Origin: an uncultured Alphaproteobacteria bacterium
Lineage (GTDB): Bacteria > Pseudomonadota > Alphaproteobacteria > HIMB59 > GCA-002718135
NCBI GenBank assembly: GCA_902625365.1
Contig: CACOAX010000005.1
Span: 1 to 55,610 of the forward strand
Direction of reading: 5' to 3'
Length of the DNA stretch: 55,610 nucleotides
A program made the position numbers and the translations under genes. The notes beneath the pieces were generated by a model. It was not told the DNA's origin. It did not search any database and saw only the letters and a list, made by a program, of their open reading frames with translations. Of the stretch, positions 19,087 through 55,410 are shown in pieces (positions within the stretch are counted from its first letter, which is position 1; every line of letters starts with the position of its first letter).

Positions 19087-20517
19087 ATGCTTGATAAACG
19101 TAAATTTTACATAAATGGGTCATGGATTGACCCAGTAATAAAAAAAGATTTTGATGTTATTAATCCCTCTAATGAAGAGACGTATGCTACAATATCTTTA
19201 GGAAGTATAAAGGATGTAGATTTGGCTATTAGTGCTGCAAAGATAGCATATTCTAAATGGAGTCAAGTTGAAAAAAAAGAGAAAATAAATTTACTAGAAA
19301 AATTACTTCAAATTTATAAAAATAGATGGGATGAAATAACTCAAACAATGTCCAATGAGATGGGAGCTCCTTTAGACTGGTCGTCTTCAGCACAAACATC
19401 TTCAGGTGCAGATCATATAAATGATTTTATTTTAAGATTAAAAAATTTTGAATTTGAAAGAAAATTTAATAAAACATCTAATAATTATATTGTTTATGAG
19501 CCTATTGGTATTTGTGGTCTGATTACACCATGGAATTGGCCAATTAACCAAATCACATTAAAAGTGATTCCAGCCTTAGCCGCTGGGTGTACTATGATTT
19601 TAAAACCATCTGAAATAGCACCTTTGTCTGGAATGCTTTTTGCAGATCTTATTCATGAAGCAGGTTTTCCTCCGGGTGTTTTTAATTTAATAAATGGAGA
19701 TGGATCTGGAGTAGGTACAGATTTATCAACCCATAGACATATCGATATGATTTCATTTACTGGTTCAACAAGAGCTGGAAAACTTATATCTAAGAATGCA
19801 GCAGATACAATTAAAAGAGTTTGCTTAGAATTAGGAGGTAAAGGGGGAAATATTATTTTTAGCGACTCTCACCCCAAAGCAGTAAGAGAGGGTGTTAGAA
19901 ATGTTATGAGTAACTCTGGCCAATCCTGTGATGCACCGACTAGAATGTTGGTAGAAAAATCAATTTACAAAAGAGCTGTAGAAGAAGCTGCCGATGAAGC
20001 TAATAAAATTAAAGTTGATATTGCTTCAAAAAAAGGTGATCATATTGGACCAGTAATTTCAGAAACTCAATATAATAAAATCATAGATTTAATAAATAGT
20101 GGTATTAAAGAAGGAGCTACACTTGTTGCTGGAGGCCCTGATAAGCCAATTGGATTAGATAAAGGTTATTTTATAAAACCAACAATATTTACAGATGTAA
20201 AAAATGAAATGCGAATAGCTAAAGAAGAGATTTTTGGGCCAGTACTTTCTATAATTCCATTTGATGATGAAGAAGAGGCTGTATCAATTGTAAATGACAC
20301 ATCCTATGGTCTAGGAAACTATGTTCAAACTCAAGATAAAGAAAAGGCCAAAAGAATAGCAAGAAAATTTAGATCAGGGGGTGTTTATATAAATGGAAAA
20401 AGTGCTGATCCAGGAACTCCTTTCGGGGGCTATAGACAATCTGGTAATGGAAGAGAAGGAGGTGTCTGGGGTTTAGAAGAATATTTAGAAATTAAAACCA
20501 TCTGTGGATGGGAATAA
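19087..20517 (+). CDS. NAD(P)-dependent aldehyde dehydrogenase
   Basis: A full-length ALDH-superfamily enzyme. N150 lies in ITPWNWPINQ, the general base E248 in LELGGKGGN, and the nucleophile C281 in NSGQSCDAPTRM. A GPVLS segment near 380 and PFGGYRQSGNGREGG near 447-461 complete the set. It oxidises an aldehyde to a carboxylic acid in the cytoplasm. Substrate class cannot be read: it could serve 4-trimethylaminobutyraldehyde or another amine-derived aldehyde, given the dioxygenase next door, but that is a guess. It converges on the dioxygenase with one base between stop codons. Confidence 0.85.
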   Translation: MLDKRKFYINGSWIDPVIKKDFDVINPSNEETYATISLGSIKDVDLAISAAKIAYSKWSQVEKKEKINLLEKLLQIYKNRWDEITQTMSNEMGAPLDWSSSAQTSSGADHINDFILRLKNFEFERKFNKTSNNYIVYEPIGICGLITPWNWPINQITLKVIPALAAGCTMILKPSEIAPLSGMLFADLIHEAGFPPGVFNLINGDGSGVGTDLSTHRHIDMISFTGSTRAGKLISKNAADTIKRVCLELGGKGGNIIFSDSHPKAVREGVRNVMSNSGQSCDAPTRMLVEKSIYKRAVEEAADEANKIKVDIASKKGDHIGPVISETQYNKIIDLINSGIKEGATLVAGGPDKPIGLDKGYFIKPTIFTDVKNEMRIAKEEIFGPVLSIIPFDDEEEAVSIVNDTSYGLGNYVQTQDKEKAKRIARKFRSGGVYINGKSADPGTPFGGYRQSGNGREGGVWGLEEYLEIKTICGWE

Positions 20518-20518
20518 T

Positions 20519-21658
20519 TTAAACTTTAATATTATTAAAATAATTTAATCTTCCAATTATTTCATCTCTTTCAATATAATATCCTTGAAGATGTCTATTA
20601 CCAGAGTTTGGGTCAAATTCGGTTCTACCATGTAATACTCTTCTATTATTAAAACAAAAAATATCACCCGCCTCTAATCTAAAATCAATTTTAAATTTTT
20701 TGTTTTGAAGAAGTGATGCAAAATATTGATACGAATCATAAAACTTTTTCATTATTTTAGGCTCAACATCTACAGCACCCATTGCAGCCATACTAAATCT
20801 AATATCATTATAATCATTATCTTTTGTTAATGTAATTATTGGTGAATGAAGAACCCTAACTGCTTTTTGAGTATAATCTGTATCTTTAAATTTTACATAT
20901 GTTTGTGTTAAAATTTTAAAAACATCTTTTTCATTTTTTTTTAAATAATTTGCAACCGCAAAACCATCTACAACAGATGATAATCCACCATTGGCCTCAT
21001 TTACTAAACAATGAAGAAACTGATAACCGGGAGCATATTCAAAATATGGTAAATCCGTATGATTTCTTAATGCATCTGCTGTATAAGCAGTGTTATTTGG
21101 TTTTGGTATATTAATTACTTCAAAAGGCGTACCAAAAAATGTTTCCCTATGATGACTTATTCTATTTAATATTTTAAATGCTGATTTTTTTCTAGTTGGA
21201 GCATTTTTGATTAAAGCAAAACCATAAGTATGAAGTAAATTTAGCCATTTTCTTAAATATTTGTCATTATTTATTACACTATCATGATCAATAATAATTT
21301 TCTTTAAATTTATATTTAATTTACCATTCCAAAAAACATAAGGAGATTTATATTTTTGTTTATTTATTTCGGTATAACAATGATCTCTTAACCATTTTAA
21401 TTTGAATATACTAGTATGATCACCTTCACTCCAATCAATACTTAATTTATTTTTTTCAATTTTATATTTTTTAGGAAATATTTTTTTACTAACAGTTAAA
21501 ATATTAAATACTCTCATATTTGCAGTAGGATGTATTGCTGTTGGACAATTATCTCTTAGCCACATAAAATGGAATTTACTTTCAAAATTGTCTTTCCATA
21601 AAATACTTAAATGATCATTCTTTTTTTCTAATTTTTTTACATGATATTTGTTATTCAT
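20519..21658 (-). CDS. Gamma-butyrobetaine-hydroxylase-type Fe(II)/2-oxoglutarate dioxygenase
   Basis: Two-domain layout of gamma-butyrobetaine hydroxylase: an N-terminal DUF971-like domain with two WLRD repeats (33-36 and 89-92), then a TauD-like jelly roll with H200 and D202 (RNHTDLPYFEYAPGYQ) and distal H343 (NNRRVLHGRTEFDP). RLEAGDIFCF precedes the last histidine. Human BBOX1 binds zinc with three clustered cysteines in the N-domain; here only C38 of that group remains, so the zinc site is probably absent. The likely reaction is gamma-butyrobetaine to L-carnitine, which would feed the carnitine genes near 47-50 kb. The related enzyme TmpA, which hydroxylates a trimethylammonio-phosphonate, is a real alternative. 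Divergent from the EamA transporter. Confidence 0.75.
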   Translation of the reverse strand: MNNKYHVKKLEKKNDHLSILWKDNFESKFHFMWLRDNCPTAIHPTANMRVFNILTVSKKIFPKKYKIEKNKLSIDWSEGDHTSIFKLKWLRDHCYTEINKQKYKSPYVFWNGKLNINLKKIIIDHDSVINNDKYLRKWLNLLHTYGFALIKNAPTRKKSAFKILNRISHHRETFFGTPFEVINIPKPNNTAYTADALRNHTDLPYFEYAPGYQFLHCLVNEANGGLSSVVDGFAVANYLKKNEKDVFKILTQTYVKFKDTDYTQKAVRVLHSPIITLTKDNDYNDIRFSMAAMGAVDVEPKIMKKFYDSYQYFASLLQNKKFKIDFRLEAGDIFCFNNRRVLHGRTEFDPNSGNRHLQGYYIERDEIIGRLNYFNNIKV

Positions 21659-26409: not shown

Positions 26410-26458
26410 TTAATCACAAATAAGTTGACCAATGAAAATATTTAAGTTTAAATAAATT

Positions 26459-31234: not shown

Positions 31235-31235
31235 T

Positions 31236-31571
31236 TTATTTAGACCACCATATTGAGTATCCATTTGGAGAAACAATTAAAGGTATGTGGTATTTTTTAA
31301 GAGGATCTTTCATTTTAAATTTAACAATTATTGTATTAATAATTTCACTGGTATTTCTAAAATATTTACCAGAATTAATTATCATTTCATAATCACTTTC
31401 ACAATCTTCTTTCGTTAATTCAAATTCTTTAAGCATTCTTCCAGAACTATCTGTTTTATCTTCTAGAAATACAACTTTGTTATTATTTTTTACTTTATAA
31501 ATAACAATTTCTACATCACTTGCATGTGTACCATCTATTGAGTTTAGTAAATGTGTAGAAAAAATTGCCAT
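31236..31571 (-). CDS. Transthyretin-like / 5-hydroxyisourate-hydrolase-like protein lacking YRGS
   Basis: A 111-residue transthyretin-fold protein. It keeps the HIUase N-terminal strand FSTHLLNS (H7), an arginine in TDSSGR (R45), and KYHIPLIVSPNGYS (H95). True HIU hydrolases end in YRGS after GYS-T; this protein ends IWWSK, so the defining catalytic tetrapeptide is lost. No urate oxidase, OHCU decarboxylase, allantoinase or other purine-degradation gene is in the window. Its position between the ThDP lyase and the DmdA-like gene suggests a hydrolytic or binding role in that pathway instead. Confidence 0.7.
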   Translation of the reverse strand: MAIFSTHLLNSIDGTHASDVEIVIYKVKNNNKVVFLEDKTDSSGRMLKEFELTKEDCESDYEMIINSGKYFRNTSEIINTIIVKFKMKDPLKKYHIPLIVSPNGYSIWWSK

Positions 31572-34482: not shown

Positions 34483-34530
34483 TTTTATATTTGTATTCTA
34501 ATATAATTTATAATTCTATTACAAAATATA

Positions 34531-35801: not shown

Positions 35802-36725
35802 TTAAAATAAATTCTTAATAGCTTCAATATGTCGTGGCTTTACTTCACAGCATCCACCAACTAGAGTAACACCTTCATTTAAAGATTTTAAAACAAACTT
35901 TTTATATTTTTCTTCTCCAAATTCTTCATTTCGAGTTCCAAGTAACTCAACAGGATCAATATAATCATAATGTCCTTCAAAACCTTCTGAATTAAATTTT
36001 TCTTCATTACTAGTAGGCAGTTCTTTAAATAAATTCATTTTATAACCAAAAGGAAGCTTTTGTTTATTAAATATAGGAATACTCAAATTAACGATTTCAG
36101 GTGATACGCAGGCTGATACTATCCCGCAACAATTAAATTTTTGAATAGTTTCAAAAAGTTCATCAAGACTTTCTCCAGATGGTAATTTTCCATCATAACG
36201 TAAGTGTGCACCTACAAGAACTTGTTTATTAAATTCTTTTGAAGCTTCTAAAGCAATTTTTATTTCTTTGATGGAACACAAAACATCTAAGTAAAATATA
36301 TCGACATAATCTTTTAATATTTTTGCAATTTCATGAAAATAATTAAACATTGTTTCATCAGTTTCAAAATGTATTGGGGAATATGTATTACCTTGATTTG
36401 GCAATGAGCCTGCAATAATAACTTTTTTTTCACTTTCATTTTTTGCTTTTAATGCAAGTGCTCCAGCAGATCTTATTCCAAATTCAAATTTATCAAGTAA
36501 ATTATATTTTTTTAGTAGCCTCCTTCTAACACTAAAATTTGAAGTGACTATTAATTGTGATCCAGCATTTATAAAATTTTTATGCATTTCTAGGACCATT
36601 TGGTGATTATTTTCATTTAATAAAGCTTGTGCTGACCAAAGATCACCTGTTGTCTCTAAACCCATTTCCATTAAAGTTTGACCTGAACCTCCATCAAAGA
36701 GGTATTTCTTATTTTTTAAAAACAT
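35802..36725 (-). CDS. Homocysteine S-methyltransferase family protein (MmuM/BHMT-like)
   Basis: TIM-barrel methyltransferase with FDGGSGQTLMEMGL at the N-terminus and all three zinc cysteines of the family: C206 in GIVSACVSP and C292/C293 in GGCCEVKPRH. Known enzymes transfer a methyl from S-methylmethionine, dimethylsulfonium compounds or glycine betaine to homocysteine. At 307 residues it is MmuM-sized rather than BHMT-sized. It is the first enzyme gene after the solute-binding protein and may remove a methyl group from the imported compound, making methionine. Which onium compound is used cannot be told. Confidence 0.8.
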   Translation of the reverse strand: MFLKNKKYLFDGGSGQTLMEMGLETTGDLWSAQALLNENNHQMVLEMHKNFINAGSQLIVTSNFSVRRRLLKKYNLLDKFEFGIRSAGALALKAKNESEKKVIIAGSLPNQGNTYSPIHFETDETMFNYFHEIAKILKDYVDIFYLDVLCSIKEIKIALEASKEFNKQVLVGAHLRYDGKLPSGESLDELFETIQKFNCCGIVSACVSPEIVNLSIPIFNKQKLPFGYKMNLFKELPTSNEEKFNSEGFEGHYDYIDPVELLGTRNEEFGEEKYKKFVLKSLNEGVTLVGGCCEVKPRHIEAIKNLF

Positions 36726-42421: not shown

Positions 42422-43204
42422 ATGAAAATTAATCTTAGTAAAAAAAATTATATTATTTCTGCTGGTGCAGATGGCTTAGGTTTTGCTATAGCAAATAAAA
42501 TAATCAGCACAGGTGGAAAAGTATATTTATCTGATATTAATAAATCAAAAATTGATAAAATAAATTTAAATAAAAAATATCGTAATAAAATATTTGCTAA
42601 ACACTTAGATTGCACAAATCCAAAAGACATTAAAGAATATTTTAAGTCTCTATCTAACTTAAAAAAAATAGATGGATTAATAAATAATATAGGCATTGCA
42701 GGACCTACAAAGTATCTTCAAAATATTTCAATAGATGAATGGGATAATACGATTAAAACCAATTTAAGTTCACATTTTTATTTCACAAAATTTGCTATTC
42801 CATTTTTAAAAAATGCTAAAAAAGGATCTATTATTAATTTATCTTCAACTGCAGGATTATATGGTTTTGCTCAACGTTCACCATATGCATCAAGTAAATG
42901 GGCAGTAATTGGATTAACTAAAACATTAGCAGTTGAATTAGGAAAATTTAAAATACGTGTGAATGCAATTTGTCCTGGTTCTGTTAATGGCGATAGAATG
43001 GATAGGGTAATAAATGCAAAAGCTAAATTAATAAATTCATCAAATAAAAAAGTAAGAAAAGAATTAGAGTCAATGGTTTCATTAAACACATTTGTAGAAA
43101 AAGAAGATATTGCATCAATGGCATTATTTTTATTGAGCGATGCTTCAGAAAATGTATCTGGTCAAATCATGACTGTTGATGGAAATACTGAAAGAATGAA
43201 TTAG
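42422..43204 (+). CDS. Short-chain dehydrogenase/reductase
   Basis: Classical SDR of 260 residues. The cofactor loop is a variant, SAGADGLGFAIA (13-24); NNIGIAG lies near 88-94, catalytic serine in NLSSTAGL near 140-147, and YASSK near 155-159 supplies Y and K. The C-terminus GQIMTVDGN is typical. It oxidises or reduces a secondary alcohol. The aspartate-rich strand YLSDINKSK after the first loop suggests NAD(H). The stop overlaps the GTG start of the GMC gene, implying a joint role in the same pathway. Confidence 0.85.
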   Translation: MKINLSKKNYIISAGADGLGFAIANKIISTGGKVYLSDINKSKIDKINLNKKYRNKIFAKHLDCTNPKDIKEYFKSLSNLKKIDGLINNIGIAGPTKYLQNISIDEWDNTIKTNLSSHFYFTKFAIPFLKNAKKGSIINLSSTAGLYGFAQRSPYASSKWAVIGLTKTLAVELGKFKIRVNAICPGSVNGDRMDRVINAKAKLINSSNKKVRKELESMVSLNTFVEKEDIASMALFLLSDASENVSGQIMTVDGNTERMN

Positions 43205-44805
43205 TGGATAAAAACGCTGACTACATCATTGTTGGAGCAGGGTCAGCAGGTTGTGTTTTAGCTAACAGATTGTCTTCACAATCAAAGAATTCTGTAATTT
43301 TATTAGAAGCTGGCCCATCCAGTAACACTTGGAAAGTTGATATGCCAAGTGCACTTCTATATGCAATGCATGACTCAAAATATAATTGGAAATATTATAC
43401 TGAGCCTGAGCCATTTCTAAATAATAGATCTTTATATTGTCCAAGAGGTAAAATGATTGGGGGATGCTCTTCGCATAACGGAATGGTTTTCGCTAGAGGT
43501 CATAAAGAGGATTTCGATAGATGGTCTTCAAGTGGTTTAACTAATTGGTCATATGAAAAAGTTTTACCTTTTTTTAAAAAACTAGAAACTTGGTCTCATG
43601 ATAGTAATGTAAGAGGTAAAGAGGGGCCATTAAAAGTAAATAAATCAAACATAGATAAGAAATACCCTCTATTTAAAAAAGTTTTAGAAGCTGCACAAGA
43701 AGCTGGATATAAAATATTTAATGACTCTAACAGTATTGATAAGGAAGGTTTTGGAACTTTTGATGTAACAATAAACAAAGGTGTAAGACAAAGTGTTGCT
43801 AAGGCATATTTAGAGCCAATCCAAAATAGAAAAAATCTAAGAATAATAAATAATATTGATGTTAAAAAAATTCTTTTTAAAAATAAAACTGCAATTGGTG
43901 TTGAAACGATTAAAAAAAATATAACCAATAATTATTTTGCCAATAAAGAAGTTATACTTTGTGCTGGTTCAATTAATTCTCCCAAAATTCTTCAATTATC
44001 TGGAATAGGTAATGAAACGTATCTTAAAAGCTTGGGAATAGAAGTAATTAATAATTTAATTGGGGTGGGAGAAAATTTACAAGATCATTTAGAGATGTAT
44101 ATTCAATATAAATCTAAAAAAAATGAAACATTACATACTTTAGCAACAAATTTTATCTATCAAGCAATAGAAGGATCAAAATGGTTTTTATTTAAAAAAG
44201 GTAGGTTAGCAAACTCACACTTAGAGCTAGGAGGTTTTGTAAAATCTGATAAATCATATAATCATCCAAACTTACAATTTCATTTTTTTCCCTACTTAGT
44301 TATTAATCATGGTTTAGAAAATCCTAATTTTGAAGCTTTTCAATTTCATGTTTGTCCAAATAGACCAAAAAGTAGGGGGTTTGTTAAAATTAAAACAAAT
44401 AACTATAAAGATGACCCTAAAATACAATTTAATTATCTTAAGCATGAAGACGATTTAAAACAAATGAGAGAAGGTGTAGGAATTGCTAAAAAAATTTTGT
44501 CTCAAAAATCACTACAAGAATATGTTGGCGCAGAAATTAGGCCTGGGAAGAATGTATCTAACCAATATGAGTTAGATGAAGTTATTAAAAATACATCCGA
44601 ATCTGCGTATCATCCGTCATGCACAAATAAAATGGGTGAGGACAAAACCTCAGTTGTAGACCAAAACCTAATGGTTCATGGAATTCAAAATTTAAGAGTT
44701 ATTGATGCTTCTGTAATGCCTGATATTGTTAGTGCAAATTTAAATGCAACAACAATTATGATTGCTGAAAAAGCTTACGACCAAATAAAAAGTACCGTTA
44801 GTTAG
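43204..44805 (+). CDS. GMC-family FAD alcohol dehydrogenase, copy 2
   Basis: The FAD loop GAGSAGCVLANRL is at 9-21; PRGKMIGGCSSHNGMVFARG near 80-99 is the second FAD motif; the catalytic histidine is in ESAYHPSCTNKMG near 471-483 and the partner asparagine in VSANLNATT. 533 residues. Starts with GTG overlapping the preceding stop (TAGTG). It should oxidise an alcohol to an aldehyde. It is a paralogue of the gene at 24772 but with clearly different sequence. As the last gene of the rightward unit, it probably acts on the imported compound or on an intermediate. Confidence 0.85.
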   Translation: MDKNADYIIVGAGSAGCVLANRLSSQSKNSVILLEAGPSSNTWKVDMPSALLYAMHDSKYNWKYYTEPEPFLNNRSLYCPRGKMIGGCSSHNGMVFARGHKEDFDRWSSSGLTNWSYEKVLPFFKKLETWSHDSNVRGKEGPLKVNKSNIDKKYPLFKKVLEAAQEAGYKIFNDSNSIDKEGFGTFDVTINKGVRQSVAKAYLEPIQNRKNLRIINNIDVKKILFKNKTAIGVETIKKNITNNYFANKEVILCAGSINSPKILQLSGIGNETYLKSLGIEVINNLIGVGENLQDHLEMYIQYKSKKNETLHTLATNFIYQAIEGSKWFLFKKGRLANSHLELGGFVKSDKSYNHPNLQFHFFPYLVINHGLENPNFEAFQFHVCPNRPKSRGFVKIKTNNYKDDPKIQFNYLKHEDDLKQMREGVGIAKKILSQKSLQEYVGAEIRPGKNVSNQYELDEVIKNTSESAYHPSCTNKMGEDKTSVVDQNLMVHGIQNLRVIDASVMPDIVSANLNATTIMIAEKAYDQIKSTVS

Positions 44806-46553: not shown

Positions 46554-47561
46554 TTAAATTTTGACTAACATTTTACCTAAATTTTTACCATTAAGTAGAT
46601 CTATGAATGCTTTAGGAGCATTTTCTATATTTTCATAAATTGTTTCTTTAAATTTTATTTTTCCTTCCGAAAGCCAATTTCGCATATCAGTTTCAAAAGG
46701 CTCATTATCATTTTCATGATCAAAAATTAAAAAACCTTTTATTGTTAATCTTTTGACTAATACATGAGCCATATTTTTTAGTCCAGCAGGAGCAGAAGTT
46801 GAATTCATTTGAGATATTCTTCCACAAATTATAATTCTTCCAAAATTTTTCATTCGAAAAATTGCAGACTCTAAAAAATCACCTCCAACATTATCAAAGT
46901 ATAAGTCAAATCCTTCAGGACAAATTTCTTTTAAGTGAAGAACAAGGTTATCAATTTTTTTATAATTAAATGCTACATCGACATTTAATTCATTTTTTAA
47001 CCAATCAACTTTTTCATCTGATCCCGTACTAGCATAAACTTTACATCCTAAGTTTTTTGCAATTTGACAAACTGTTGATCCAACACTTCCTCCAGCTGAA
47101 GATACAAGAATACTTTGTCCCCTTTGTATTTTTCCATGGTTAAAAAGACCGATATATGCAGTCTGCCCTGTCATTCCTAAAGGCCCTAGATAAGTTTGTA
47201 ATGGAAGATCAGAATTTTTGATTTTTTTTAAATCACTTCTTTTGCAAATGAAATTATCTCTCATACCAAAATTACTGAAAACAATATCTCCTTCTTGAAA
47301 TTTTGAATCTTTAGATTTTTGAACTGAACCAATTGCATAACCTTCCATTTCCTCACCTAGTAAAAAGGGCGGTTTATAATTTTTACGTTCTGTCATTCTT
47401 GCCCTCATGTACGGATCAACAGATATCCATGAATTTAGGACATGAATATTATTTGTTTCATCTAATTCTAAAGTTTTAGATTTAATTTCAAAATCATCTT
47501 CTTTAGGTAATCCAGTTGGAATATAATTTTTTAAAGCTACATATTTTGAGATTATTGTCAT
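46554..47561 (-). CDS. NADP-dependent medium-chain reductase (CurA/PTGR type)
   Basis: Zinc-free MDR of 335 residues. LGEEMEGYAIGSV near 68-80, MTGQTAYIGLFNHG near 130-143, then the cofactor loop SSAGGSVGSTVCQIAKNLG near 154-172 and DLYFDNVGGDFLE near 219-231 match the curcumin/prostaglandin reductase family. It reduces an alpha,beta double bond or similar group with NADPH. It is 2 bases downstream of the carnitine dehydrogenase and so in the same leftward unit, though no such reductase is part of the known carnitine-to-betaine route. Confidence 0.85.
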   Translation of the reverse strand: MTIISKYVALKNYIPTGLPKEDDFEIKSKTLELDETNNIHVLNSWISVDPYMRARMTERKNYKPPFLLGEEMEGYAIGSVQKSKDSKFQEGDIVFSNFGMRDNFICKRSDLKKIKNSDLPLQTYLGPLGMTGQTAYIGLFNHGKIQRGQSILVSSAGGSVGSTVCQIAKNLGCKVYASTGSDEKVDWLKNELNVDVAFNYKKIDNLVLHLKEICPEGFDLYFDNVGGDFLESAIFRMKNFGRIIICGRISQMNSTSAPAGLKNMAHVLVKRLTIKGFLIFDHENDNEPFETDMRNWLSEGKIKFKETIYENIENAPKAFIDLLNGKNLGKMLVKI

Positions 47562-47563
47562 AA

Positions 47564-48484
47564 TTATAATTTATATTTTTTCTTTAATTCTAGCAAATCT
47601 ATTAAGAAATTATCTCTTATGTTACTTAAATCTTTTATAGAATTATTCTTTGATTGTTTTTTTGTGCCTTTGATGATTTTTTCTTTAAGTTTTTTTGTTA
47701 GTTCTGGAGATTTGAGTTTAGTCCATGGAAGTTTCAATGCTGGTCCAAATTGATCTAGCATATGTTTCATACCCATTTCTCCTCCTGCTAAGTGAAATGT
47801 CAAAAAGGTTCCCATTAGAGCCCATCTCATACCAGGACCATAAGTAATTGCTTCATCTAAATCTTTTGTTGAAGCATATCCATCATTTATAATATGTAAA
47901 CCCTCTCTCCACAAAGCTTCTTGTAATCTATCAGACAAAAAGCCTGGTAATTCTTTTTCTACCAATAATGTCTTCATTTTAATTTTTTGATAAAATTTTT
48001 TAGCTTTATTAAGATATAAATTTGTAGTTTTTTTACCTTTTACAATTTCAACTAATGGGAGAATATATACAGGGTTAAAGGGATGAGCTATGATTAATCT
48101 TTTTGGATTAATACATTTTGATTGTAAATCTGATGGAAGTAAACCAGAAGAACTTGAAGCAATTATCGAATTTGAGGGTGAATATTTACTTATATTTTTT
48201 ATAACATCTTTTTTTAAAGACAGTCGTTCAGGAACATTTTCTTGAATTAAATCTGCATTTTTCACTGCTTCCTCAATATTGTCTACAATTTCCAAATTTT
48301 TGAAATTGATTTTTGTATTATATAATTTTTTTACAATTAAGTTTGTTCTTGATATTTCTTTTTTTAAAAAATTTAATTGTTTAGAATTTTTATCAAATGC
48401 TTTGACTTTTATACCATTAGCGAGAAATCTAAGTATCCAGCCAGTACCAATTACACCAGTTCCAATGACAGCAATATTTTTCAA
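47564..48484 (-). CDS. lcdH: L-carnitine 3-dehydrogenase
   Basis: A 3-hydroxyacyl-CoA-dehydrogenase-fold enzyme of 306 residues: GTGVIGTGW at 7-15, ASSSSGLLPSDLQ near 109-121, HPFNPVYILPLVEIV near 134-148, and YGPGMRWALMGTFLTFHLAGG near 219-239. HPFNPVY-LPLVE and the GPG-RW-LMG run are characteristic of L-carnitine dehydrogenase rather than fatty-acid enzymes. It oxidises L-carnitine to 3-dehydrocarnitine with NAD. In many relatives a thioesterase is fused at the C-terminus; here it is a separate gene at 49419. The BKACE gene immediately upstream would take the product. Confidence 0.85.
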   Translation of the reverse strand: MKNIAVIGTGVIGTGWILRFLANGIKVKAFDKNSKQLNFLKKEISRTNLIVKKLYNTKINFKNLEIVDNIEEAVKNADLIQENVPERLSLKKDVIKNISKYSPSNSIIASSSSGLLPSDLQSKCINPKRLIIAHPFNPVYILPLVEIVKGKKTTNLYLNKAKKFYQKIKMKTLLVEKELPGFLSDRLQEALWREGLHIINDGYASTKDLDEAITYGPGMRWALMGTFLTFHLAGGEMGMKHMLDQFGPALKLPWTKLKSPELTKKLKEKIIKGTKKQSKNNSIKDLSNIRDNFLIDLLELKKKYKL

Positions 48485-48485
48485 A

Positions 48486-49376
48486 TTAAAAATGTTTTTT
48501 TAGTTTTAATTTTTTTCTTGTCTGTTGCGGGGATAAAATAGAAGCGCCCATATCTTCAACAATGCATCTAGCCTTTTCAACTAATTGTGCATTTGATGCA
48601 AAAACTCCTTTCTTTAAATAAAGATTGTCTTCCAGTCCTACACGAACATTGCCTCCTAAAATAACCGCTTGTGCAGCCATGGGCATTTGCGATCTCCCTA
48701 TTCCAAATCCAGACCAAATACCTTCAGAAGGAACCATTTCAGCCATTGCTTTCATTGCACTTGTTGTTGCTGGTGATCCCCATGGTATACCAAGACATAT
48801 TTGATAAAAAGGAGGGCCGTCAATTAAACCTTCTTTATAAAGTTGGTTAGCAAACCATAAATGACCCATTTCAAAAGCTTCCATTTCCGGTTTAACTCCA
48901 AGCTCCTGCATTTTTTTTGCTGCAGTTCTGAGTTGTATCGGTGTATGAATAAAAGTCATATTTGAGTCACCAAAATTTAGTGATCCGCAGTCTAAAGTAC
49001 AAATTTCAGGTAATAACTCTTCAACATGTTCTAATCTGCTTAATGCGTCGATCATATCTGTATTTGCTCCCACTGGATTTAAGGGATTTTTACCTGTTCC
49101 AACCTCAAAATCACCACCCATGCCTGTGGTAAAATTTAAAACTACATCGGTGTCAGAAGAACGAATTCTATCAGCTACTTCTTTATAATAATTTAAATTT
49201 CTAGAAGGTTTGCCATCAGGTTCCCTAACATGTACGTGAGCTATTGCTGCACCTGCTTTGGCCGCTTCTATTGAAGCAGTAGCAATTTGTTTTGGTGTTA
49301 TTGGTAATTCAGGATGTTTACCTGCCGTATCTCCTGATCCAGTTACTGCGCATGAAATTATTACTTCATTATTCAT
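48486..49376 (-). CDS. BKACE enzyme, probable 3-dehydrocarnitine:acetyl-CoA trimethylamine-acyl transferase
   Basis: Beta-keto acid cleavage enzyme (DUF849 family), 296 residues. The zinc ligands H48 and H50 are in [10 protein letters not shown] and TGSGDT at 12-17 forms part of the active site; [15 protein letters not shown] near 163-177 and [15 protein letters not shown] near 250-264 are typical. With L-carnitine dehydrogenase next to it, the likely reaction is 3-dehydrocarnitine plus acetyl-CoA to betainyl-CoA plus acetoacetate. Divergent from the thioesterase across 42 bases. Confidence 0.85.
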
Positions 49377-49418: not shown

Positions 49419-49886
49419 ATGAAGATATATTTAAATTCAGGAAGAGTTAAAAAGGAATGGACAGATTACAATGGTCATATGAATTTGGCATTTTATATTC
49501 ATCTTTTTGATGCTGGATGGGAAGTTCTTTTACAAAAATTTAATATGGGTGAAACTTCAGCAAAAACAGAGAAGAAAACCACTTTTGCCGTAGAGTCACA
49601 CACAACTTATGACAAAGAAGTCAAAGAGGGCGATGAAGTAGATATTAATTTGTTATTTCTTGATAGGGATAAAAAAAGATTAATTTATAAATTAGAAATG
49701 ACACATAAGCTTGAAGGTTATAGGGCAGCAACAACAGAGGTTTGCTCTTTGTATGTTGATTTAAATATTAGAAAAGTTTCAGAATTAGAATTAGAAAAGC
49801 AACAAGATATAGATAAATTTATTCAAGAAAATAAAAATAACTTTGATCCAGGAAACCTTACACTAATCCAAAAGCTCAAGAAGTAA
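49419..49886 (+). CDS. Betainyl-CoA thioesterase (hotdog fold)
   Basis: 155-residue 4HBT-like thioesterase. WTDYNGHMNLAFY at 14-26 holds the catalytic D16 and the family GHMN; TTYDKEVKEGDEVDI near 62-76 is the core strand. The same domain is fused to L-carnitine dehydrogenase in other bacteria and hydrolyses betainyl-CoA to glycine betaine. Together with the divergent BKACE and dehydrogenase genes it completes carnitine to glycine betaine. It converges on the HD-domain gene with no gap. Confidence 0.8.
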   Translation: MKIYLNSGRVKKEWTDYNGHMNLAFYIHLFDAGWEVLLQKFNMGETSAKTEKKTTFAVESHTTYDKEVKEGDEVDINLLFLDRDKKRLIYKLEMTHKLEGYRAATTEVCSLYVDLNIRKVSELELEKQQDIDKFIQENKNNFDPGNLTLIQKLKK

Positions 49887-50450
49887 TTATAAATTTCTAT
49901 AAGGTGTTCTATTAAATATTCTTTGAACCATAGGAACAAATTCTTTTAAAGGTACAGTATCATAATTTGGGTCAAATGAAGATTGATCCCATCTTTCACA
50001 AAAATTTATAGTATCATTAAAGAATTCATGTCCAACAAATTTGTCACGAAGATTTCTATCTTTGCCATAGTGGTGATTATAATAATACGCTTGAAATAAA
50101 CCATGTTGTTCAACTATCCATCTAGTTTTTTCTGAAACAAATGGTTTTAAGACAGCTGCAGCTAGTTCAGAATGATTTAATGGAGCTATTTCATCACCAA
50201 TATCATGTAATAGTGCAGCAACTACCATCTCTTCAGAAGCCTGTTCTCTTAGTGCTCGTGAAGCTGTTTGAAGAGAATGTTCCAATCTTGAAACCTTATA
50301 TCCACCCATTGATTTATCTAAACCTTGAAGTACTCTAACAATTCTATCTGCTGTTCCTTCAATATATTTGTCTTCAAAATTTGCTAAAAGATCATAATCT
50401 TCTTTATCACCATGTTTCATTTCAGTGAATTTTACTTCATCTTTAGACAT
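49887..50450 (-). CDS. HD-domain mixed-valent di-iron oxygenase candidate (PhnZ/TmpB type)
   Basis: 187 residues from ATG 50450. A longer frame from 50540 overlaps the divergent agmatine deiminase and is rejected. The ligand pattern of PhnZ/TmpB/inositol oxygenase is complete: H58 in RLEHSLQTA, H82 and D83 in LLHDIGDE, H93 in PLNHSELAA, H116 in VEQHGLFQAYYY, and D155 in CERWDQSSFDP. Simple HD phosphohydrolases do not keep all six. TmpB cleaves a hydroxylated trimethylammonio-phosphonate to glycine betaine. At the positions where I recall PhnZ has Y24 and E27, this protein has M48 and Y51, so the substrate probably differs. It sits beside carnitine genes. Confidence 0.7.
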   Translation of the reverse strand: MSKDEVKFTEMKHGDKEDYDLLANFEDKYIEGTADRIVRVLQGLDKSMGGYKVSRLEHSLQTASRALREQASEEMVVAALLHDIGDEIAPLNHSELAAAVLKPFVSEKTRWIVEQHGLFQAYYYNHHYGKDRNLRDKFVGHEFFNDTINFCERWDQSSFDPNYDTVPLKEFVPMVQRIFNRTPYRNL

Positions 50451-50478: not shown

Positions 50479-51462
50479 ATGAAACTAATTCCTGAATGGT
50501 ATGAGCACCAATATTGTCTTATTGCTTGGCCATGCAACAAAGATCTTTATGGAGATATTATCAATAATGCTAGAGATGAGGTTGCCAACGTAATTAATGA
50601 AATCGCAAAAACTGAACGTGTAATTGTCTTATCAAACAAAGAAGATATTAATGAAATTGAAAATAAAACCAATCATGAAAATATAGATATTTTAAAATGT
50701 AAATTAGATGATTCTTGGATGCGAGATATTGCCCCAATTTTTTATAAAGAAGATGAAAAATTAAAATCAATTAGTTTTGAATTTAATGGTTATGGAAAGT
50801 ATCCAGATTATTTAAATGATAATAAAATATCAAAATTTATTTCAAACTATTTAAATGTCCCAACAAAAATTTCTGATTTAGTAATTGAAGGAGGAGCAAT
50901 AACTTATGATGATAAAAAAAATTTATTTAGCACTAAAAATGTAATATTTAATAAAAATAGAAAACAAAAACATAATAGTGAATATATTATTAAAGAATTA
51001 AAGCTCTTGTTTGAATTAAATTATATTTTTTTATTTGAAAATGGGCTAATGGAGGATGATACAGATGGTCATGTAGATAATTTATTATGCCCGATAGGAA
51101 AAAATAAATATTTAATTGCTACAACTCACAAATTAGATCCTAATTATGAAATATTAGAAAAAAACAAAGCTGATCTTATTAAATTTTTTAAAGATACTAA
51201 TCAGACATTTGATTTAATTGAAGTTCCTTTACCTACAAGAAAAAAGATTAATAATAAGAATATTATTAGCTCATATATAAATTTCTATTTCAGTAAAAAT
51301 AAAATTATCTTACCTAAATTCAATGTTAAGGAAGACAATGAGGTAAAATTAACTTTTGAAAAGTTATTCCCAAATCGAGAAATTATAATGTTGGAAACAG
51401 AAAATATAAATTATGGTGGAGGAAATATTCATTGTATAACAATGAATGTACCAAAAATATGA
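50479..51462 (+). CDS. aguA: Agmatine deiminase
   Basis: Pentein-fold guanidine-modifying enzyme of 327 residues. LIAWPCN near 14-20, DDSWMRDIAPIF near 76-87 (D and R binding the guanidine), EGGAI, MEDDTDGHVDNL (catalytic H) and GGGNIHCITMNVP at 313-325 with nucleophile C319 are all present. It converts agmatine to N-carbamoylputrescine and ammonia. The last four bases overlap the next gene, the amidase of the same pathway. 327 residues is slightly short of the usual 360-370 but no motif is lost. Confidence 0.9.
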   Translation: MKLIPEWYEHQYCLIAWPCNKDLYGDIINNARDEVANVINEIAKTERVIVLSNKEDINEIENKTNHENIDILKCKLDDSWMRDIAPIFYKEDEKLKSISFEFNGYGKYPDYLNDNKISKFISNYLNVPTKISDLVIEGGAITYDDKKNLFSTKNVIFNKNRKQKHNSEYIIKELKLLFELNYIFLFENGLMEDDTDGHVDNLLCPIGKNKYLIATTHKLDPNYEILEKNKADLIKFFKDTNQTFDLIEVPLPTRKKINNKNIISSYINFYFSKNKIILPKFNVKEDNEVKLTFEKLFPNREIIMLETENINYGGGNIHCITMNVPKI

Positions 51463-52316
51463 AAGTAAAAGTAGCAACATCACAATTTGAGGCTATTAAA
51501 AGTGATTTTGATTCTAATTTAAATAAAGCAATCAGTTTAGTTGAAAAAGCTTCCAAGGAAAATGTAGATATTTTGCTTCTACAAGAATTATTTCAAGATT
51601 ATTATTTTTGCTCAACAAAAAATGATAAATTTTTTGATCTTGCAATTGATTTTCCTTCTCATCCAATGTTTGAAAAATTATCAAACATATGCAGAGAAAA
51701 AAAAATTTCATTACCTATTAGTTTTTTTCAAAAAAAAGATAATAATTTTTTTAACTCACTAGTTATGATTGATTCTTCCGGTAAAATAAGTGAAGTTTAT
51801 AATAAGTCTCATATTCCTGAAGGTCCTGGATATAATGAGAAATATTATTTTGAAAAAGGTAATACTGGTTTCATGGTCTTTGATACACCAAAAGCAAAGG
51901 TTGGCTGTGCAATTTGTTGGGATCAGTGGTTTCCTGAATGTGCAAGAATATTAACTTTAAAAGGTGCAGATTTAATTTTTTATCCATCAGCAATTGGTTC
52001 TGAACCACACATGCCTGAATTAAATTCAAAAGATCATTGGATTAATACAATGGTAGGACATGCTGCTGCAAATCAAATCCCAATAATAACTTCGAATAGA
52101 ATAGGGAAGGAGGTCGAGGCTAATATTGAATTAAATTTTTATGGTAATTCTTTTATATTGGATCATCTTGGAAATGTAATAAATCGTATGAATGATAAGG
52201 ATGAGGGAATAATAACTGCGACTTTAGATTTATTAATTTCAAGAGAATATAGAAAATTATGGGGTAACTTTAGAGATAGAAGGCCCGATCTATATAAAAA
52301 AATTCTCGATTTTTAA
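51459..52316 (+). CDS. aguB: N-carbamoylputrescine amidase
   Basis: Nitrilase superfamily, 285 residues from ATG 51459, which gives the ATGA overlap; a TTG at 51432 would add nine unrelated residues. The catalytic triad is E43 (LLLQELFQDYYF), K116 (YNKSHIPEGPGY) and C153 (GCAICWDQWFPE). QELFQDYYFC and CWDQWFPE are characteristic of AguB. It hydrolyses N-carbamoylputrescine to putrescine, CO2 and ammonia. The polyamine-type transporter follows on the same strand. Confidence 0.92.
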   Translation: MKVKVATSQFEAIKSDFDSNLNKAISLVEKASKENVDILLLQELFQDYYFCSTKNDKFFDLAIDFPSHPMFEKLSNICREKKISLPISFFQKKDNNFFNSLVMIDSSGKISEVYNKSHIPEGPGYNEKYYFEKGNTGFMVFDTPKAKVGCAICWDQWFPECARILTLKGADLIFYPSAIGSEPHMPELNSKDHWINTMVGHAAANQIPIITSNRIGKEVEANIELNFYGNSFILDHLGNVINRMNDKDEGIITATLDLLISREYRKLWGNFRDRRPDLYKKILDF

Positions 52317-52344
52317 TTTATTTTATTTATTGTCACTATTATTT

Positions 52345-52350
52345 AGGAGG
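52345..52350 (+). promoter_or_regulatory. Strong ribosome-binding site for polyamine-binding protein
   Basis: AGGAGG is six bases before ATG 52357 and three before ATG 52354, so it fixes the start near the signal peptide and rules out the TTG at 52330. Confidence 0.7.
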
Positions 52351-52356
52351 AGAATG

Positions 52357-53403
52357 ATGCTTAAGTATTTTATATCTCTATTAGTTTTTATCTCTTTTTC
52401 AGCTCAGGCTAAAGAAGAATTATTTATTTACAATTGGTCTGATTATATTGCGGAAGATACAATTGAAAATTTTGAAAATGAATTTGGCATTGATGTGACT
52501 TATGATGTTTTTGATTCAAATGAAGTTCTTGAAGCTAAACTTTTAGCAGGTGGTTCTGGTTACGACATAGTCGTGCCTTCAGGTTCTTTTTTAGAAAACC
52601 AAATCAAGGCTGGTGTTTTTCAAAAACTTGATAAATCAGAATTATCCAACTTGGGAAATTTGGATCCTGAAGTTCTTGCAAAAATTGATGCACATGATCC
52701 TGGCGGTCAATATTCTGTAAATTATATGTATGGCACAACCGGTATTGGTTACAATACTGATAAAGTTGATGAGGATGAAGTCACTAGTTGGAGTATTTTA
52801 TTTGATCCAGCTATTGCGGCAAAATATGAGGATTGTGGAATAGCTATGTTAGATGCTCCATCTGAAGTAATGGAAATTGCTCTAAAATATATAGGTAAAG
52901 ACCCTTATACTGAAAATGAAAGTGACTATGAAGCTGCGCTGTCAATGTTACAGGAAATTAGACCTTTTATAAGATATTTTGATTCTTCTCAATATATCGA
53001 TGATCTTGCTAATGGTGAAATTTGTCTAGCTATGGGTTGGTCAGGTGATGTTTTTATTGCCGCTTATGAAGAAATAGAACCTGTCTGGTATTCTATTCCT
53101 TCTGAAGGAACTGTAATTTGGTTTGATATGATGGCAATTCCAGCTGATGCAAAAAATGTTCTAAACGCACATAAGTTTATAAATTATATTATGCGTCCTG
53201 AAGTTGCTGCTGATATTACAAATTATGTTTGGTATTCAAATCCAAATAAAGCCGCAAATGAATTTGTTGATCCTGAAATTTTAGGAGATCCAGCAATTTA
53301 TCCAGATGAAGCAACTTTAAGTATGCTTTTTGCTGATACTGCTGACTCGCCTAAAAAAGCACAGTTATCAAGTAAATATTTTAATAAGTTTAAATCAAAT
53401 TAA
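52357..53403 (+). CDS. Putrescine/spermidine-type periplasmic binding protein (PotF/PotD)
   Basis: 348 residues starting with a clear signal peptide (LKYFISLLVFISFSAQA, cleaved after about residue 18). The mature protein begins KEELFIYNWSDYI, which is the start of PotD/PotF proteins, followed by YDVFDSNEVLEAKLLAGG, GYDIVVPSG and NYMYGTTGIGYN. I chose ATG 52357 for spacing from AGGAGG; 52354 is equally possible. It delivers a polyamine to the permease encoded downstream. With agmatine deiminase and carbamoylputrescine amidase upstream, agmatine or putrescine is a likely ligand. Confidence 0.88.
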   Translation: MLKYFISLLVFISFSAQAKEELFIYNWSDYIAEDTIENFENEFGIDVTYDVFDSNEVLEAKLLAGGSGYDIVVPSGSFLENQIKAGVFQKLDKSELSNLGNLDPEVLAKIDAHDPGGQYSVNYMYGTTGIGYNTDKVDEDEVTSWSILFDPAIAAKYEDCGIAMLDAPSEVMEIALKYIGKDPYTENESDYEAALSMLQEIRPFIRYFDSSQYIDDLANGEICLAMGWSGDVFIAAYEEIEPVWYSIPSEGTVIWFDMMAIPADAKNVLNAHKFINYIMRPEVAADITNYVWYSNPNKAANEFVDPEILGDPAIYPDEATLSMLFADTADSPKKAQLSSKYFNKFKSN

Positions 53404-53418
53404 AAAATATACATAATT

Positions 53419-53448
53419 TCAGCACTAATATATTAATATTAGTGCTGA
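53419..53448. repeat. Perfect hairpin between binding-protein and ATPase genes
   Basis: TCAGCACTAATAT, ATTA, ATATTAGTGCTGA: a 13-bp perfect stem with a 4-base loop, 15 bases after the binding-protein stop and 6 before the ATPase ATG. It has only a short T run after it, so it is more likely a partial terminator or mRNA stabiliser that favours binding-protein expression. Confidence 0.7.
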
Positions 53449-53454
53449 TTTAAA

Positions 53455-54522
53455 ATGGATAAAAATTTTCTTGTCATTGAAAACATTTCTAAATCTTTTG
53501 GAGAAAACAAGGTTTTAGAAAATATTAATTTAAATATTTCTAGATCTGAATTTTTTGGACTTTTAGGATCATCTGGTTCGGGTAAAACTACATTATTAAG
53601 AATATTAGGTGGATTTGAAAAACCAGATACAGGACGAGTAATCTTAGATGGAGTTGATATAACAAATCTTGAACCCTTTGATAGGCCGTTGAATTACATG
53701 TTTCAATCGTACGCTTTATTCCCTCACCTGAATGTATTTAATAATTTAGCTTTTGGGATAAAAGAAAATTTTAGTAATAAAGAAATTGAAACTAAAGTAA
53801 AAGATATTGCTGCGCTTTTATCAATTGAAAATTTATTGAATAGAAGAATTAAGCAACTTTCAGGAGGAGAGCAACAGAGAATTGCCCTTGGTAGATGTTT
53901 AATAAAGCAACCTAAATTGTTATTACTAGATGAGCCTCTTGCTGCACTAGATAAAAAACTTAGATCAAAAACACAATTAGAGTTAACAACACTCCAAAAG
54001 AAACTTAAAATTACATTTGTTTTCGTCACCCATGATCAGGAAGAGGCAATGTCCTTGTCTGATAGAATGGCAATAATGAAGAATGGTCTAATTTTGGAAT
54101 GTTCTAGCCCTGAAAAGATTTATGAAAATCCTAAAAGTCTTTATACTGCCAACTTTATAGGAATTGCAAATATAATTGAGATTTATAAGAAAGATGAAAA
54201 TTTTTATTCTGACGATTTAGATATAAATTTTAAATTAAACAAAGAATTAAAAAATACAAAAACTAATATTTTACTAAGACCAGAGAAAATAAAAATTCAA
54301 TCATCAAATAATTCTAATATAAATTCATTTAATTCTTTTTATGGAGATATTTTAGAAAAATCATATTTGGGAAGTTTTACACGTTATGAAATTAAAATTA
54401 ATAATAAGATTATTTCAGTTTTAGATCAGAATTTTAATTCAAACTCTAACTATAACTTTCCAATAGGTGGAAAGGTTGTCTGTAGTTGGGAGAAAGAATC
54501 AATTAAAATATTAGAGGATTAA
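53455..54522 (+). CDS. Polyamine-type ABC transporter ATPase (PotA/PotG)
   Basis: 355 residues. Walker A GSSGSGKTTL near 37-46, Q-loop NYMFQSYALFPHL, signature LSGGEQQRIALGR, Walker B LLLLDEPLAALD, H-loop FVFVTHDQEEAM, then a C-terminal TOBE region (LLRPEKIKIQ). This matches spermidine/putrescine ATPases. It would drive import together with the two following permeases. It is preceded by the hairpin at 53419 and ends exactly where the TTG start of the next gene begins. Confidence 0.9.
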   Translation: MDKNFLVIENISKSFGENKVLENINLNISRSEFFGLLGSSGSGKTTLLRILGGFEKPDTGRVILDGVDITNLEPFDRPLNYMFQSYALFPHLNVFNNLAFGIKENFSNKEIETKVKDIAALLSIENLLNRRIKQLSGGEQQRIALGRCLIKQPKLLLLDEPLAALDKKLRSKTQLELTTLQKKLKITFVFVTHDQEEAMSLSDRMAIMKNGLILECSSPEKIYENPKSLYTANFIGIANIIEIYKKDENFYSDDLDINFKLNKELKNTKTNILLRPEKIKIQSSNNSNINSFNSFYGDILEKSYLGSFTRYEIKINNKIISVLDQNFNSNSNYNFPIGGKVVCSWEKESIKILED

Positions 54523-55410
54523 TTGAAAAATAAATTATTTGAAAAATATTTTGTTTTCACTCCATATTTTTGGCTAGTTTTATTTTTTTTCATTCCATTA
54601 GCTATAATCTTTAAAATATCAATATCAGTATCTGAATGGGGGATGCCTCCTTATCAAGAAATTATTCTTTTTAATGATGGTTTTAAAATTAACACAACTT
54701 TTGAAAACTATGTTTATATATTTACTGATTATTATTATATTGGGTCTTTTATAAATTCATTGATTTTGGCTCTAATATCTACTTTTTTTTGTTTACTTAT
54801 TGGGTTTCCATTGGCATTTTATATTGCGACTTCAAAAATTAGATTAAGAAATATTTTATTAGTTTTAGTAATTATTCCTTTTTGGTCATCATTTTTATTA
54901 AGAGTATATGCATGGAAAATAATTTTACAGAATAATGGGCTTTTAAATTCAATGCTTATAAATCTTGGCATAACATCAGAGCCATTTCAGTTATTATATA
55001 ATCAATATGCGGTAATCATGGGTATTGTATATACTTATTTACCTTTGATGATTTTACCACTTTATGGATACTTAAATAAATTTGATTTAAATTTAATTGA
55101 AGCATCAAAAGATTTGGGGCTAAATCGTTTTAAAACCTTTTTTAAAGTTATACTTCCTTTGTCTGTTCCTGGAATTGTTGCCGGGTCTTTATTAGTTTTT
55201 ATACCTGTTGTTGGTGAATTTATTATACCTGAAATGTTAGGTGGTAGTGATAGGTTGTATTATGGAAAGATATTATGGGAGGAATTCTTTGTTAATAGAA
55301 ATTGGCCAGGTGCTAGTGCTTTAGCTTTTAGTGGAATTATTATTTTGGTTTTACCAATTGTTATTTTTCAAATACTTTATTCTCGTTGGAGTCAAAAAAA
55401 TGAAATCTAG
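54523..55410 (+). CDS. Polyamine-type ABC permease (PotB/PotH)
   Basis: 295 residues with six transmembrane segments. FFIPLAIIFKISISVSEWG near 20-38 and the EAA loop EASKDLGLNRFKTFFKVILPLS near 193-214 are typical of PotB/PotH. Translation probably starts at TTG 54523, right after the previous stop, with AGAGG five to six bases upstream; there is no ATG nearby. It forms the inner-membrane channel with the PotC/PotI-like protein that overlaps its end by 11 bases. Confidence 0.9.
   Translation: MKNKLFEKYFVFTPYFWLVLFFFIPLAIIFKISISVSEWGMPPYQEIILFNDGFKINTTFENYVYIFTDYYYIGSFINSLILALISTFFCLLIGFPLAFYIATSKIRLRNILLVLVIIPFWSSFLLRVYAWKIILQNNGLLNSMLINLGITSEPFQLLYNQYAVIMGIVYTYLPLMILPLYGYLNKFDLNLIEASKDLGLNRFKTFFKVILPLSVPGIVAGSLLVFIPVVGEFIIPEMLGGSDRLYYGKILWEEFFVNRNWPGASALAFSGIIILVLPIVIFQILYSRWSQKNEI

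Follow-up and report, generated by a model that had tools for sequence, protein, structure and literature searches.

HD-X, a subfamily of predicted HD-domain di-iron oxygenases in Alphaproteobacteria, and its gene neighbourhoods

The HD-X gene and its neighbours in the window

The gene under study, P0001, lies in a window of 55,610 nucleotides (the whole stretch of DNA that was analysed) from a genome, G000, whose assembly measures 1.03 Mb and is 55% complete. We use HD-X as a working name for the subfamily to which its product belongs. The open reading frame expected at this place was found on the minus strand, with its ATG at 50450 and a stop codon ending at 49887 (Table 1). The frame is kept in 76 loci at 47-100% identity and is thus not a chance ORF, and in an alignment of 11 sequences the start sites of its relatives fall at about the same place.

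The original prediction had placed the gene beside carnitine genes, which is borne out: genes for a carnitine dehydrogenase-like protein (CDH), a BKACE-family enzyme and a thioesterase are indeed close by, but their scores are either below curated cut-offs or have none to be set against. The thioesterase gene and P0001 abut stop to stop, a convergent arrangement found in 7/7 close-relative loci in the tree, and because this opposite-strand gene stands between them, HD-X and the BKACE-CDH pair are probably not co-transcribed in the window. No hydroxylase gene adjoins HD-X there. Farther away, the GMC oxidoreductase gene at 43204-44805 and the aldehyde dehydrogenase gene are relatives of those in plasmid-borne HD-X clusters, relatives of this GMC also lying near HD-X in other lineages, and the TauD protein encoded in the window is of another kind than the TauD neighbours of HD-X elsewhere. 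The window further holds a homocysteine methyltransferase-like ORF (35802-36725; 86.8 bits, below cut-off) and, at 24772-27931, a second GMC oxidoreductase gene beside a betaine-aldehyde-type dehydrogenase gene, both under the choline/BADH cut-offs. On the other side of P0001, 28 bases away, a divergent ORF starts at 50479 that presumably resembles agmatine deiminase, and we take the divergent run 50479-55410 to comprise agmatine deiminase-, N-carbamoylputrescine amidase- and polyamine ABC transporter-like ORFs.

Table 1. Features of the window and of two further contigs of the same genome (G000)
Feature	Position	Strand	Remarks
HD-X gene (P0001), predicted HD-domain di-iron oxygenase-like protein	49887..50450	minus	187 aa
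H58 codon	50279-50277	minus	
H82 codon	50207-50205	minus	
D83 codon	50204-50202	minus	
H93 codon	50174-50172	minus	
H116 codon	50105-50103	minus	
D155 codon	49988-49986	minus	
Thioesterase	49419..49886	plus	59.8 bits to thioesterase part (345-480) of carnitine 3-dehydrogenase NF005716
BKACE-family enzyme, candidate 3-dehydrocarnitine cleavage enzyme	48486..49376	minus	no NCBIfam model over cut-off
Carnitine dehydrogenase-like (CDH)	47564..48484	minus	341.8 bits to L-carnitine dehydrogenase NF005471, cut-off 414
NADP-dependent oxidoreductase, CurA type, downstream of CDH	46554..47561	minus	306.7 bits, cut-off 440
GMC oxidoreductase, choline dehydrogenase subfamily	43204..44805	plus	697.9 bits, cut-off 605
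DMSP demethylase equivalog	30113-31276		529.6 bits, cut-off 410
Gamma-butyrobetaine dioxygenase-like TauD protein	20519..21658	minus	319 bits, cut-off 414.75
Aldehyde dehydrogenase	19087..20517	plus	48-52% identical to ALDHs of HD-X clusters L166, L339
PhnZ/TmpB-type HD protein of G000 (L002/L313)	contig C1 about 34172-34735		158.7 bits on TmpB model, cut-off 300
TmpA-like TauD protein of G000	contig C40 834-1904		316.6 bits on TmpA model, 268.9 on gamma-butyrobetaine dioxygenase model

Profiles, predicted fold and active-site residues

Pfam recognised P0001 as an HD protein (26 bits, cut-off 22), and its MIOX model (PF05153) matched under the gathering cut-off (17.4 bits, cut-off 25). The three best NCBIfam models were all HD oxygenases, scoring far under their cut-offs: Phn-HD (TIGR03276; 41.8 bits vs 214.6), TmpB (NF049941; 41.5 vs 300) and hydroxymethylphosphonate dioxygenase (32.7 vs 300). 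A single-sequence search of the PDB returned PhnZ (E 1.6e-5), a designed mini-binder (0.0038) and TmpB (0.0045). With a profile the values for PhnZ and TmpB fell to 2.7e-9 and 8.5e-7, and with a more diverse profile to 3.4e-11 and 1.3e-8, followed, up to E 10, by Cas10 (0.085) and a lipase (0.28). PhnZ and TmpB were the only matches below E 0.01 in these profile searches, and no HD hydrolase was found under that value.

The AlphaFold model of P0001, built from 11 sequences (mean pLDDT 86.2, pTM 0.81), matched PhnZ and TmpB with Z scores of 16.8-16.3 over 153-156 residues, and MIOX with 10.6 and 9.3. Outside these three proteins the best chain was a PPX/GppA protein at Z 7.4, and the predicted HD hydrolases 3ccg and 2pq7 reached 6.6 and 6.5, values that, being below 8, may by the structure comparison tool's own warning reflect only a common structural arrangement. 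Foldseek placed ten PhnZ/TmpB chains first (E 2e-6 to 1e-5); the next match, 2pq7 (E 0.03, TM 0.32), came just before MIOX (0.055, TM 0.56), both far behind PhnZ/TmpB. Fold similarity in itself shows no function; the predicted fold and the PDB profile search together support the view that P0001 resembles oxygenases and not phosphohydrolases. Clustering with HD phosphohydrolases was sought by fold and by profile and none was found, which leaves the oxygenase reading standing. The suspicion that such proteins are misnamed as phosphohydrolases proved justified, since plasmid-borne relatives carry that annotation, others being called 'HD domain-containing protein' or 'inositol oxygenase family protein'.

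All six predicted di-iron ligands (H58, H82, D83, H93, H116 and D155, numbered from the ATG at 50450) are present at the positions first proposed, and they are invariant in the 11/11 aligned sequences and in 144/144 members of the HD-X family. Because dinuclear HD hydrolases such as YqeK carry the same motif, as the excerpted text of the review PMC8177086 states, the six ligands are necessary for assignment as an oxygenase but not enough to establish it. The same excerpt holds that cofactor and substrate are not inferable solely from sequence or crystallography.

The pocket residues of 144 HD-X proteins and 31 proteins of the PhnZ/TmpB type were aligned and compared. P0001 residues 45-87 align ungapped to PhnZ 21-63 (HMMER), which confirms that M48 and Y51 take the places of PhnZ Y24 and E27. 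These two PhnZ residues belong to the YxxE loop (PMC8177086, section 1.4, in excerpt), a substrate gate of PhnZ/TmpB that is thus absent from P0001; at the loop positions, Tyr occurs in 12/144 and Glu in 4/144 HD-X proteins, against 31/31 and 24/31 PhnZ/TmpB relatives. The residue after HDxG (D86 in P0001) is Asp in 134/144 HD-X proteins and His in 29/31 of the PhnZ/TmpB type, and four positions beyond the fourth His ligand (Q120) the two sets have Gln in 143/144 and Lys in 31/31, respectively. This His and this Lys of the PhnZ clade presumably contact phosphonate. With D86 and Q120 in their places, a phosphonate substrate is unlikely for P0001 and is disfavoured here. A "fifth conserved histidine" is given as a mark of the phosphonate clade (PMC11203657, in excerpt), and we infer that it is the His after HDxG. 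On these sequence grounds and by its NCBIfam scores, P0001 is neither a PhnZ nor a TmpB, and HD-X is a separate subfamily.

The strongest point against the oxygenase reading is R55, three residues before the first His, where Arg is found in 134/144 HD-X and 0/31 PhnZ/TmpB-type proteins and is described as common to all HD phosphohydrolases (PMC8177086, in excerpt). Together with the YqeK motif and the place of 2pq7 just ahead of MIOX, it speaks for a dinuclear HD hydrolase (a phosphatase, a phosphodiesterase or other) in which R55 binds phosphate and the oxygenase-like fold is only inherited. We regard such a hydrolase as unlikely: no HD hydrolase came below E 0.01 by profile, every chain beyond PhnZ, TmpB and MIOX stops at Z 7.4 against 16.8 for PhnZ, and the hydroxylase neighbours described below would have no clear role beside it. 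R55 may alternatively bind a substrate carboxylate. The original di-iron oxygenase prediction thus stands on the predicted fold, the profiles and the hydroxylase neighbours of relatives; the six ligands are insufficient by themselves, and R55, of the hydrolase type, counts against it.

Distribution and gene neighbourhoods of HD-X relatives

HD-X is apparently a widespread, uncharacterised subfamily. At E 1e-10 it was found in 111/385 sampled genomes of the class Alphaproteobacteria, 40/299 genomes of the phylum and 15/72,556 plasmid records, with no match in 50,697 phage records. The fetched loci held 145 HD ORFs, 144 of which entered the tree and the alignment after the short fragment L173 was dropped. 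HD-X forms one group in this tree, joined by a long branch to PhnZ/TmpB (support 0.73); since only these two sets and no hydrolase outgroup are in it, the tree does not decide between oxygenase and hydrolase. Four loci (L199, L213, L222, L224) carry two HD-X genes in tandem, the last three of them beside Rieske oxygenase genes. In CABZFN010000011.1 (L054, L056) and in G016 C11, two opposed HD gene copies lie near both ends of one contig, perhaps through an assembly inversion artefact.

An upstream ORF on the same strand was present for 108/145 HD ORFs, and 94 of these were scanned, which left out 11 ORFs (L066, L068, L070, L073, L074, L075, L078, L167, L175, L176, L177) and 3 tandem HD paralogues; downstream, 71/87 were scanned. 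Oxygenase families accounted for 23 of the 94 upstream neighbours (TauD 9, PhyH 6, Rieske 6, DIOX_N 2), a tally made per Pfam family that takes the four families as 23 different proteins, and the other 71 fell outside them. Since the ORF calls were mechanical, spurious frames may be among the neighbours, and several neighbours, being from related genera, do not count as independent. None of the four families was among the 25 listed for 91 control genes 2.5-6.5 kb away, where 50 further families had at most one member each. Downstream of HD-X, PhyH was found in 2/71, and the first member scanned matches a fatty acid hydroxylase. Where an oxygenase gene lies upstream, the layout is the hydroxylase-HD order of PhnY-PhnZ and TmpA-TmpB.

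Seven scanned TauD partners near P0001 in the tree reached 334-357 bits on the TmpA model (cut-off 400) and 250-269 bits on the gamma-butyrobetaine dioxygenase model (cut-off 414.75); the TmpA-like TauD of the window's own genome is encoded on a different contig. The TmpA motif HTDNPYR was found in 11/13 TauD rows compared, the G000 copy reading HSDNPYR and L293 (G123), a row of the TauD model, having neither form. TmpA-like TauD proteins of at least 419 bits occurred in 18 genomes, 17 of which also have HD-X (the single miss being G037); 11 of the 18 are rows of the TauD model, most of them picked for having HD-X, and among the 7 non-model genomes 6 have HD-X, against 111/385 overall. We rejected this co-occurrence as proof of partnership, since HD-X also accompanies carnitine dehydrogenase (47/64 genomes) and other TauD proteins (35/46 genomes), so that genome content confounds it, and since most of the model rows were preselected. 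The TmpA likeness of the partner would point to a substrate of the size of TMAEP.

Genes for small onium compounds recur in these neighbourhoods. The six listed genomes of genus g279 with an HD-X hit (hit-less g279 genomes may exist beyond them) share a run of regulator, BKACE, HD, CDH, acyl-CoA dehydrogenase, what we take to be an acyl-CoA synthetase, and a CaiD-like gene, in which HD and CDH overlap by at most 10 bases. At L257 of this genus, the GbdR-like regulator scored 203.7 of 480 bits and the CaiD-like protein 314.6 of 500; CDH is over the carnitine 3-dehydrogenase cut-off (596.1 vs 592) and matches this model only to position 346 of 495, and no hydroxylase adjoins HD-X. The g279 genome G589 has a second HD-X copy, L258, outside the carnitine operon. 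The carnitine route and a divergent AraC-type regulator are described in the excerpted texts of PMC5806209 and PMC12482172.

On a P. aeruginosa plasmid, HD-X comes second in a run that starts with TauD and continues with a choline-binding protein, a member of the choline dehydrogenase subfamily and an aldehyde dehydrogenase; the choline-binding protein (457.7 bits, cut-off 379) and the choline dehydrogenase subfamily member (755.8 bits, cut-off 605) are over their cut-offs. On a Rhizobium plasmid (CB3060), HD is preceded by genes for a GbcB-like reductase (304.1 bits, cut-off 500) and a small NirD-like protein and followed by a related GMC, a binding protein and an ALDH; NXC24 carries the same GMC. 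In family f2, which belongs to the window's order, locus L196 (6402-11636) encodes on one strand a DMSP demethylase (DmdA), an MFS protein, an ORF that we take to be RidA-like, TauD and HD, with gaps of 38, 8, 65 and -4 bases. DmdA scored 483.2 bits against a cut-off of 410, the model being scored on one of the two f2 loci; the other, L197, has relatives of these genes in the same order, and a presumed glutathione-peroxidase-like ORF lies on the same strand in both runs. In Pelagibacteraceae, the HD gene follows what is presumably a purF-like ORF in five loci (L073, L074, L075, L175, L176), a nearby MFS gene shares its family with the one in f2, and ORFs that we assume to be of glutathione synthesis come after HD-X in L075, L175 and L176.

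A phosphonate oxygenase, that is, a diverged TmpB cleaving a hydroxylated trimethylammonio-phosphonate, would fit the nearest solved relatives (PhnZ and TmpB), the TmpA-like TauD partner and a PBP_like_2 gene, presumably of the phosphate-binding type, which follows HD at a distance of 64-86 bp in L183 and L193. It is nonetheless very improbable for P0001, given the low scores on the TmpB and Phn-HD models, the replacement of the clade His and Lys by D86 and Q120, and the absence of phosphonate families from the 25 listed for upstream and the 25 listed for downstream neighbours. Moreover, G000 already has a PhnZ/TmpB-type HD protein in a separate phosphonate-type locus, next to ORFs that we take to be a PhnW-like aminotransferase and a phosphatase, so the two kinds of HD protein coexist in one genome.

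We also weighed a dedicated carnitine enzyme, which would turn carnitine and O2 into glycine betaine and glycolate in a single step, bypassing CDH, BKACE and thioesterase. The equation balances, HD-X keeps its place beside carnitine genes in the window's close relatives and lies between BKACE and CDH in the six g279 genomes with a hit, and carnitine already has the hydroxyl that L257, with no adjoining hydroxylase, would need; yet such an enzyme would duplicate the CDH-BKACE pair of its own operon, is probably not co-transcribed with that pair in the window, and belongs to a pairing seen within 10 kb in only 2/64 class genomes with a CDH match (E 1e-80, positions compared by eye), which makes it highly unlikely. 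The same count led us to reject carnitine as the general context of HD-X: both genomes (G000 and G220) are of the window's genus, and in four genomes of genus g38 HD-X lies 31-48 kb from CDH. The carnitine link is therefore tight in g279 and rare overall, and the substrate hint drawn from the carnitine neighbours is weak in the window and strong only in that genus. Replacement of the betainyl-CoA thioesterase by HD-X, an idea prompted by the short CDH match at L257, was likewise rejected, the window having both proteins.

Proposed reaction and comparison with known HD oxygenases

We conclude that P0001 probably belongs with PhnZ, TmpB and MIOX among the O2-dependent di-iron oxygenases of the HD fold, in a subfamily of its own, rather than with the phosphohydrolases, and that it is probably not a phosphonate oxygenase. 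The oxygenase assignment is well supported by computation; the cofactor, the use of O2, the reaction and the substrate class are inferred. By analogy with PhnZ and MIOX, the six ligands would bind an Fe(II)/Fe(III) pair, D83 bridging the two irons, and the substrate hydroxyl would sit on one iron and O2 on the other. A superoxo species would take the carbinol hydrogen, and the adjacent C-C bond would be cleaved in a four-electron oxidation that yields a carboxylate with no external reductant. R55 would bind the substrate carboxylate, D86 replacing the His of the phosphonate clade. In many relatives an adjoining hydroxylase would introduce the substrate's hydroxyl; relatives with no such neighbour could act on a compound, carnitine for instance, that already carries one.

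Since the recurrent partners are hydroxylases and small-onium genes, the simplest reading is that HD-X uses O2 to cleave a C-C bond in a hydroxylated onium acid. The substrates are likely to be quaternary-ammonium or sulfonium acids that bear a hydroxyl, and a likely product is glycine betaine. A more specific proposal, which we put forward as a distinctly long shot, is an as yet unrecognised oxidative route of two enzymes in SAR11-type ocean bacteria, in which a TmpA-like dioxygenase would alpha-hydroxylate onium propionates (DMSP, beta-alanine betaine) and HD-X would cleave the C-C bond, giving CO2 and an onium acetate (dimethylsulfonioacetate or glycine betaine).

As oxygenases, the HD-X proteins would correct 'phosphohydrolase' annotations and, with their spread, their different pocket residues and their varied hydroxylase partners, would add to the fold a new branch that probably cleaves C-C bonds. 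Published estimates put phnZ in anything from <1% to about 20% of cells (PMC10574752, in excerpt), and loose phnZ searches in ocean surveys might pick up HD-X-like proteins. No title among the listed matches in the open-licence literature concerned an HD oxygenase that acts on carnitine, betaine or DMSP; an earlier prediction of the subfamily is possible. Because HD-X shares operons with carnitine, choline and DMSP genes, candidate substrates can be put to a direct test.

Three HD-domain oxygenases are named in the excerpted text of PMC8177086, the two bacterial ones, PhnZ and TmpB, cleaving C-P bonds. HD-X has in common with PhnZ, the (R)-2-amino-1-hydroxyethylphosphonate oxygenase, the HD fold (Z 16.8), the six-ligand motif, the LEHSLQ helix and, in many relatives, a hydroxylase partner, which for PhnZ is a 2OG enzyme; PhnZ and Phn-HD (TIGR03276) have the YxxE loop, His, Lys and Gln where P0001 has no loop, D86, Q120 and R55. 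TmpB, the (R)-1-hydroxy-2-trimethylaminoethylphosphonate oxygenase, likewise agrees with P0001 in ligands and fold (Z 16.3) and is paired with TmpA, much as a TmpA-like dioxygenase gene lies next to HD-X in several relatives of P0001, but its clade His and Lys are not kept in HD-X and P0001 stays far below its model cut-off. MIOX (PF05153) has the same ligands, a related fold (Z 10.6), no YxxE loop and the C-C cleavage proposed for P0001; its solved chains are longer (241-258 residues vs 187) and its model scores P0001 under the cut-off. The PhnHD of Achromobacter was also first annotated as a phosphohydrolase and re-read as an oxygenase; it differs in belonging to the TIGR03276 clade, with that clade's fifth His, and in lying beside phosphonatase operons (PMC11203657, in excerpt). 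Next to the TmpA-TmpB phosphonate route, the tentative route of a TmpA-like dioxygenase and HD-X would be its carboxylate counterpart.
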